DNA from: Stenotrophomonas rhizophila
GTDB taxonomy: Bacteria; Pseudomonadota; Gammaproteobacteria; Xanthomonadales; Xanthomonadaceae
Direction: 5' to 3'
DNA: 64,000 nucleotides
NCBI RefSeq assembly: GCF_001704155.1
Contig: NZ_CP016294.1
Coordinates: forward strand, 927,501-991,500
Made by a program: the position numbers and the translations under genes. Positions within the stretch are counted from its first letter, which is position 1. Each line of letters starts with the position of its first letter. Under the pieces are notes generated by a model that did no database searches, was not told the DNA's origin, and saw nothing but the letters and a program-made list of their open reading frames with translations. Of this stretch, positions 2,531-62,476 are shown one piece after another.

Positions 2531-2882
2531 CAGAGCCGGCCAGACAGTCGCGTCATTCCTTCGGGAATGCCGAGGAAAGTCCGGGCTCCGCAGGGCAAGG
2601 TGCCAGGTAACGCCTGGGCGGCGCGAGCCGACGGAAAGTGCAACAGAAAGATACCGCCTACGTTCCCTTCGGGGAGCCGGTAAGGGTGAAATGGTGCGGT
2701 AAGAGCGCACCGCGAGTCTGGCAACAGACCGGCACGGCAAACCCCACCTGGAGCAAGACCAAATAGGGTCCTCATGGCGCGGCCCGCGTCGGGACCGGGT
2801 AGGTTGCTTGAGCGCCACGGTGACGTGGCGCCTAGAAGAATGACTGTCCACGACAAAACCCGGCTTATCGGCCGGCTCTGCC
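2531..2882 (+). ncRNA. rnpB: RNase P RNA (class A)
   Basis: Catalytic RNA of ribonuclease P, which matures tRNA 5' ends. The universally conserved blocks are present in order: CAGACAGTCGC near 2541, GAGGAAAGTCCGGGCTCC near 2571, GGTAAGGGTGAAA near 2678, and AGAATGACTGTCC with ACAAAACCCGGCTTA near 2836-2866. The ends pair as P1: CAGAGCCGGCC (2531-2541) with GGCCGGCTCTG (2870-2880). Length of about 350 nt is normal for proteobacteria. A GC hairpin at 2906-2927 lies just downstream. Confidence 0.96.
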
Positions 2883-2905
2883 GCTTTTTCCGCCGACGGC
2901 GAAGA

Positions 2906-36768: not shown

Positions 36769-36802
36769 GCAAAAGCTCCGGTAATGGACGAATGGCTCGT
36801 CT

Positions 36803-36890
36803 TCGCCGGGCGCCGTTGGAACCAGCCCTGCCACCGAGCCTGGCCGTGCGGAACAGGTCCGGCAGCGGTCGCAGCGCCCCTCGGTGGAGG
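36803..36890 (-). ncRNA. SAH riboswitch in the ahcY leader
   Basis: Reading the minus strand, the order CCACCGAG, GGGCGCTGCGACCG, CCAGGCTCGGTGG and CAACGGCGCCC matches the SAH riboswitch consensus. P1 forms between CCACCGAG and CTCGGTGG (plus 36880-36887 and 36831-36838). The pseudoknot forms between GGGCGC and GCGCCC (36874-36879 and 36809-36814). The aptamer begins a few bases after the expected start from the TATAAT at 36899-36904 and ends about 25 bases before the ahcY Shine-Dalgarno. Known SAH riboswitches switch ahcY on when SAH is high. Confidence 0.92.
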
Positions 36891-47734: not shown

Positions 47735-47875
47735 AGATCAACGGCGTCGGCTCTGCCGGGTCCCACGGCTTGGCAGGTCGGTGTGGGTTTGCGGGGGACG
47801 CCGTGAACCCATCCTTGGGGGCTTGGTCGCGGCATCCATGCCGCTCACACCCCCGCAAACCCACCCCGACCTGCC
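47735..47875. repeat. Long-hairpin element, copy A
   Basis: The outer arms at 47772-47797 and 47850-47875 are complementary over 25 of 26 bases (GTGGGTTTGCGGGGG against its complement). Inside is a second hairpin, GCGGCAT-cc-ATGCCGC, at 47829-47844. The box AGATCAACGGCGT (47735-47747) precedes it. The same arrangement and nearly identical core recur at 62241-62378, where the inner stem carries a compensatory G-C to C-G change. It lies between dusB and rbsK in a 423-base gene-free stretch. Confidence 0.8.
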
Positions 47876-47920
47876 TTTGAGACATTGTCGGTGACGGTAC
47901 GAACGTCAAATGCAGAGGCA

Positions 47921-62240: not shown

Positions 62241-62378
62241 AGAGCAACGGCGTTTCCATTGCCCGCGTGCAGGTGAGCGGCGGGGGTGGGCCCGCGGGGG
62301 GCGCCGTTAACCCATCCTTGGGGGCTTGGTCGCCGCATCCATGCGGCTCACACCCCCGCAAACCCACCCCCGCCACTC
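62241..62378. repeat. Long-hairpin element, copy B
   Basis: Second copy of the element at 47735-47875. It has the box AGAGCAACGGCGT (62241-62253), arms at 62275-62300 and 62353-62378, and the inner hairpin GCCGCAT-cc-ATGCGGC (62331-62346). The region from AACCCATCCTTGGGGG to the right arm is almost identical to copy A. The left arm reads GGGCCCGCGG where copy A has GGGTTTGCGG, so three outer pairs are lost here. It lies between the convergent kinase and SGNH genes. Confidence 0.8.
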
Positions 62379-62476
62379 CCCTCGATGGTGTGCGAGCGCG
62401 GTAGGGTCGGTTCCCAAACGACTGCCGACTCTGCTGATCGGCCCTTTAACGCATGACCTCAAAACAACGTGCGCTG

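Follow-up and report, generated by a model that had tools for sequence, protein, structure and literature searches.

A dispersed hairpin element of Stenotrophomonas and other Gammaproteobacteria as a probable CsrA/RsmA-binding RNA

CsrA/RsmA regulates metabolism and lifestyle globally, and a few known sRNAs curb its activity. CsrB, CsrC and RsmX/Y/Z are encoded at one or a few loci and carry several loops each. The element described here resembles them in the GGA of its hairpin loops and in the titration of CsrA/RsmA that we propose for it, but differs in being dispersed in up to about 120 copies, each presenting two loops under a long stem. None of these sRNA families was matched at the Rfam gathering score in the window (the whole stretch of 64,000 nucleotides of the Stenotrophomonas rhizophila genome analyzed here) or in 18 loci from other gamma-proteobacteria. 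According to the relevant passages of PMC4333381, CsrA binding has also been proposed for TwoAYGGAY (RF01731), an RNA with two AYGGAY loops, and for the reverse complement of Bacillaceae-1 (RF01690); by analogy, there is thus precedent for proposing CsrA binding from loops. The element is set apart from both by its three-way junction, its long variable stem and its conserved bulge (TTCAC/CTTGC). Both models were absent from the 74 cmscan matches that seven loci returned at E values up to 10, which were mostly to microRNA hairpin models and otherwise below gathering scores, and RF01731 had no match at the gathering score in the 18 loci or the window.

Closer in taxonomic terms is RsmU of Xanthomonas campestris, reported in the pertinent part of PMC7694677 as an RsmA-binding RNA with GGA motifs in the comEA 3' UTR, which shares with the element these motifs, the 3'-region location and the bacterial family. 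Membership of RsmU is nevertheless unsupported, with five of six comEA loci lacking a match and the sixth (in genome G273) having a pair of copies about 1.3 kb away. The CsrA-related sRNAs of Alcanivorax are, as far as the account in PMC9788540 goes, two single loci. Among DNA repeats, the SMAG/GTAG REPs of Stenotrophomonas are described in the corresponding section of PMC3733652 as dispersed palindromes between tandem or convergent genes, often in pairs of opposite orientation. Dispersal, palindromic character, placement between tandem and convergent genes and frequent opposite pairing are common to both families; however, SMAG/GTAG REPs measure 20-40 bp and are tagged by GTAG, whereas the element has a branched core of 106 nt without a GTAG foot and is not a 20-40 bp palindrome ending in GTAG.

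No family in Rfam 15 matches the element. At gathering scores, Rfam recovers in the window only a bacterial RNase P class A RNA gene (2532-2883, plus strand) and a SAH riboswitch (36801-36888, minus strand), and in the 18 loci from other gamma-proteobacteria only one tRNA. As no description was found in the open-licence PMC literature either, the element apparently stands for a large family of dispersed gamma-proteobacterial repeats that has so far escaped description.

The two window copies and their fold

An initial annotation of the window had described two copies of a long hairpin, each with a box (AGATCAACGGCGT and AGAGCAACGGCGT, respectively), long arms and the core AACCCATCCTTGGGGGC, approximately where we find them. 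It had not seen the strand of the element; the relevant orientation is the minus strand of the window, and the features are accordingly given on that strand.

47771..47876, minus strand: copy 1 of the element, comprising the outer stem, the three-way junction and both hairpins, A and B (positions 1-106 of the model); covariance-model match of 123.4 bits, E 6e-25, with a model partly built from this copy
47850..47875, minus strand: copy 1, 5' arm of the outer stem, from fold and consensus structure, limits approximate
47833..47840, minus strand: copy 1, apical loop of hairpin A, CATGGATG, an ANGGAN hexaloop with a C-G closing pair
47810..47817, minus strand: copy 1, apical loop of hairpin B, CAAGGATG, an ANGGAN hexaloop with a C-G closing pair
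47772..47798, minus strand: copy 1, 3' arm of the outer stem, from fold and consensus structure, limits approximate
47735..47770, minus strand: 3' flank of copy 1 with the annotated box; by eye not conserved family-wide
47877..47919, minus strand: 5' flank of copy 1; by eye similar to a flank common to many copies of this genome
47924..47951, minus strand: intrinsic-terminator-like site between copy 1 and the upstream gene, which we take to be ribokinase-like
62274..62379, minus strand: copy 2 of the element; 106.8 bits, E 3.2e-21, with a model partly built from this copy
62336..62343, minus strand: copy 2, apical loop of hairpin A, CATGGATG
62313..62320, minus strand: copy 2, apical loop of hairpin B, CAAGGATG

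Read as RNA, the minus strand forms a long outer stem that closes a three-way junction bearing hairpins A and B; the outer stem keeps its pairing while its sequence is free, and hairpin B contains the conserved 5-nt bulge. The folding z-scores are -5.56 for copy 1 and -4.15 for copy 2, with none of 200 shuffles equally good in either case. The exchange in the inner stem that the annotation had noted, GCGGCAT/ATGCCGC in copy 1 and GCCGCAT/ATGCGGC in copy 2, is indeed present, and both copies lie between predicted genes, as it had stated; none of the copies in this genome overlaps a predicted gene (65 rows, some duplicate). The box AGA(T/G)CAACGGCGT likewise occurs in both window copies, yet it is no hallmark of the family, whose 3' flanks vary by eye.

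The genome search and covariance model that the annotation had proposed returned many copies with covarying stems, and these bear out its view that base pairing, not sequence, is kept, as well as its description of a dispersed element or structured RNA. In the 30 copies of this genome from which the model was built, 98.0% of the cells are paired, far from stems being broken as often as kept, against a shuffle mean of 77.8 and at most 49.3% in versions with slid partners. Double changes affect 27 of the 36 pairs and amount to 206 cells (shuffle mean 60.7), and the covariation score of 0.551 compares with a mean of 0.177 in shuffles and a maximum of 0.125 with slid partners. What is conserved in the element is pairing, not sequence. 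The same can be followed at a single site, since genome G014 carries an orthologous copy 1 at the syntenic position (86% identity over the 1.1-kb query). Judged by the helices of the consensus, the two orthologs are separated by five double compensatory changes and one C-G to U-G change; loop B has two changes, exactly at its two variable N positions, and the remaining differences are at an unpaired position and at both termini. Of the five compensated pairs, two (28/53 and 29/52) rest on the consensus structure; on the minimum-energy fold of copy 1, three double changes and one single change keep pairing and two pairs are broken.

The pairing also distinguishes the strands. In the outer stem, read on the minus strand of the window or its equivalent, G-U pairs outnumber A-C mismatches 23:1 in the copies of this genome and 107:10 in other Xanthomonadales (together 174 of 192 unique copies, 18 having been dropped by the requirement that both loops read CA.GGA.G), and 31:11 in 49 copies from other gamma-proteobacteria; these ratios weigh more than p-values, related copies being non-independent. 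Because G-U pairs exceed A-C mismatches so clearly, whereas a palindrome kept at the level of double-stranded DNA should give equal numbers of both, a folded single strand is under selection. Most simply this strand would be RNA, although single-stranded DNA of the same strand is also compatible, and the strand-specific excess of wobble pairs would support expression of the element as RNA, against which stands the lack of a promoter-like site at copy 1.

Copy number and spread

Far more than two copies exist. The covariance-model search yielded at least 59 distinct copies in the S. rhizophila genome (94 rows minus weaker opposite-strand echoes), a lower bound in that 150 of 3274 candidates were scored at first look and two copies with insertions (L037 and L043) stand outside the count; a BLAST-type search gave 60 rows. 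With 59 copies in one genome, a chance origin of the element is excluded. Among 31 related genomes, this one included, 16 hold copies. Within the genus the number ranges from no match in four of 19 genomes (again with this one included) to 121 rows in G005, and G186, from a different genus, has 117 rows; rows of the search in relatives include opposite-strand echoes, but by eye the G005 and G186 listings have no overlapping rows. Across the order Xanthomonadales, copies turned up in 74 of the 299 genomes, which represent 23 of the 85 genera, copy numbers being floors here, with 13 candidates per genome scored at first look.

The exact core pattern extends well beyond the order, to at least 119 stretches in named genomes. 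Among the 80 matches listed, 79 are from named gamma-proteobacteria and one from a genome named only as Proteobacteria; the genera include Stenotrophomonas, Xanthomonas, Arenimonas, Marinobacter, Microbulbifer, Shewanella, Alteromonas, Methylomicrobium and others. This wide spread and the ANGGA loops are additions to what had been annotated. Carriage as phage or plasmid cargo is rejected, with no viral contig containing the exact core pattern, no phage record matched by BLAST, and a single plasmid match, in Marinobacter, to which 32% of the query aligns.

Loops and the candidate CsrA/RsmA site

Both hairpins end in loops that read A-N-G-G-A-N. ANGGA is present in both loops of 53 of the 58 copies from this genome and of 127 of 134 from other genomes (hairpin A, 56/58 and 130/134; hairpin B, 55/58 and 129/134), the latter being the better-scoring copies under a model trained on ANGGA copies, and GGA is about 99% fixed across the 192 unique copies. 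The N after the first A varies: in other genomes it is T in 92, G in 26, A in 6 and C in 4 copies of hairpin A (6 gaps) and T in 66, G in 33, A in 25 and C in 9 copies of hairpin B (1 gap). In this genome, hairpin B has T in 32, A in 16, G in 6 and C in 3 copies, while in hairpin A this position is an invariant T (57/57). The spacing between the loops is 23 nt in 141 of 174 copies (range 19-25). Folding alone leads to a similar picture: of those 155 among the 192 copies that have exactly two predicted hairpins, 152 show GGA in the loop of the first and 137 in that of the second; the exact CANGGANG is apex-centered in 147 of the first and 74 of the second hairpins.

In the 94-sequence set, 50 sequences stem from loci whose search pattern prescribes loop B, and the invariance of loop B is therefore largely by construction; hairpin A provides the independent loop test. 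Outside the Xanthomonadales, where the search pattern was free of hairpin A, its apical loop (counted with the closing base) contains GGA in 46 of the 51 single-hairpin folds obtained from 56 segments, against 182 of 1252 (14.5%) in the shuffled control; locus L283, named only as Proteobacteria, was placed with the Xanthomonadales. In these other gamma-proteobacteria the loops of hairpin A are at times shorter or altered (e.g., CAGGACG, CCGGACG).

As set out in the relevant part of PMC7652899, SELEX defined the CsrA/RsmA site as RUACARGGAUGU with GGA within a hairpin loop, RsmE binds ANGGAN hexaloops, and a single dimer can span two sites at a distance of 10-63 nt, distances above 18 nt being the most favorable. 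The element has apical loops of this kind (ANGGAN or AGGA), and the spacing of its two sites falls inside the range of 10-63 nt; judged by sequence, both loops correspond to the published site at a spacing that a dimer could bridge. A potential partner is encoded in the same genome, whose single csrA gene has a product that matches solved CsrA chains by sequence and is clearly a CsrA. Co-occurrence with csrA says little, however, because the gene is so common (243 of the 299 genomes of the order). In a comparison by eye, seven of the 74 element-bearing genomes, all of them drafts of 65-90% completeness, are absent from the csrA-positive rows. As a separate observation, also by eye, no csrA was seen in a number of genomes that the order scan assigns to family f9 (e.g., G026, G045, G053), others of this family being csrA-positive, and no f9 genome is seen among the element-bearing rows.

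Since one compact RNA would carry two CsrA loops of high consensus, docking of RsmA/CsrA is the best explanation of the element, and we put at roughly 70% the probability that it is a dispersed, repeat-like CsrA/RsmA-binding RNA near gene 3' ends that serves as a sponge, a tether or both. This reading builds on what was observed of the fold and its covariation, the strand, the motif in the loops, the number and spread of copies, their preference for gaps, and the presence of csrA. In the mechanism that we propose, the long paired stem of free sequence would close the three-way junction and present the two ANGGAN hairpins, usually 23 nt apart, as a two-point docking site for one CsrA/RsmA dimer. 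A genome can have as many as about 120 copies, most of them in gaps next to gene 3' ends; those that are transcribed would sequester RsmA/CsrA, forming a distributed sponge, and/or anchor the protein to their own host transcripts. More tentatively, and with the odds somewhat against it, one may envisage a distributed counterpart of CsrB, split into tens to about 120 repeat-like, single-dimer RNA modules at gene 3' ends and spread through the Gammaproteobacteria; its sponge capacity would be set by copy number and by which neighborhoods are transcribed. A widespread, high-copy family in which the letters of the CsrA loop are nearly fixed would add a layer to the CsrA circuit and would place one class of intergenic repeats among RNA elements instead of DNA elements.

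Genomic setting, turnover and rival explanations

Several observations count against the CsrA reading. A scan for sigma-70 promoters around copy 1, the copy covered, found no promoter-like site, and a terminator-like site separates the upstream gene from this copy. The GGA strand has no preferred orientation relative to neighboring genes, coinciding with that of tandem neighbors in 18 cases and being antisense in 16 (34 rows, some duplicate). The lack of any match in four of 19 genomes of the genus, set against the 121 rows of G005, would also be odd for a vital regulator.

Patchiness across the genus and the many dispersed copies would suit a repeat made of mobile, palindromic DNA, similar to a MITE or to REP/BIME. 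Its hairpins, as single-stranded DNA, would be read by a transposase, for instance a Y1 HUH enzyme, so that the loops would be transposase determinants and CsrA irrelevant. Recognition of one DNA strand in single-stranded form would yield the wobble excess as well, and the layout is BIME-like: adjacent copies are divergent in 18 of 18 cases in this genome (gaps of 78-230 nt) and in 38 of 42 and 9 of 16 cases elsewhere. Units do multiply, too, as by eye some copies have arms and flanks in common. We nevertheless consider such a repeat unlikely. No foot conserved across genera was seen to adjoin the stem by per-position identities, by which a shifted box could be missed as arm lengths differ, although by eye the G024 copies do have a common foot box; among 58 copies of this genome, just one has GTAG in the 12 nt that precede the element on its 5' side. 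Nor was a clean insertion boundary seen at the two sites read in G002, and the persistence of GGA while loop size varies fits CsrA sites better. A 3'-end element whose stable stem terminates transcription or shields mRNA 3' ends, without a dedicated protein partner, appears unlikely in slightly greater measure. It would agree with the gaps in which the element resides, which are divergent in 3 of 75 cases as compared to 13 of 38 other gaps of at least 150 nt (Fisher p 3.6e-5; fetched loci plus the window, whose 17 gaps include its two element gaps, with genes called by simple codon usage). Yet none of the 58 copies has a run of five T within 25 nt 3' of the element, and the two nearly fixed ANGGAN loops and the branched core would be left unexplained.

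Complementary arms can also arise without function, when quasi-palindromes are corrected at the DNA level. The G024 copies, whose outer arms diverge beyond the inner few pairs and are far more different than the core, while hairpin A and the loops are alike, would be in keeping with this. Correction predicts equal numbers of G-U and A-C, though, in conflict with all three ratios given above, and leaves the fixed GGA unaccounted for; we regard it as very improbable. The same arm differences in G024, with hairpin A near-constant, had prompted the idea that the arms are inverted target duplications, which is weakened by related copies that by eye share arms and some flank.

CsrA/RsmA docking is the reading that we prefer, for a family whose copies come and go. 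In G002 both window copies are absent, and site 2 apparently retains a remnant of the 5' flank (junctions judged by eye), which looks like a loss rather than an empty target. Copy 2 was not seen in G014, G013, G312 and G315, and G015 retains it.

In the S. rhizophila genome (G000), 40 of 41 element sites fall in an arc of 780-3470 kb that was picked post hoc, with one site outside; with respect to a replication bias, the GC skew of the fetched loci was too noisy to locate origin or terminus. Arrays of four to six copies occur at L298, L264 (3107-3749) and G186 (1099525-1100367); orientation alternates in the Xanthomonas locus and in G186, and the array in a Saccharophagus metagenome contig is head-to-tail and AT-rich. 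By eye, short hexamer repeats (e.g., GCTGTT or TTTGGC) lie in the 3' flanks of several copies of this genome (e.g., L171, L170, L176), and a REP-like palindrome of the GTAG type adjoins copy 2 at about 62400-62430 of the window, as is likewise the case for several other copies.
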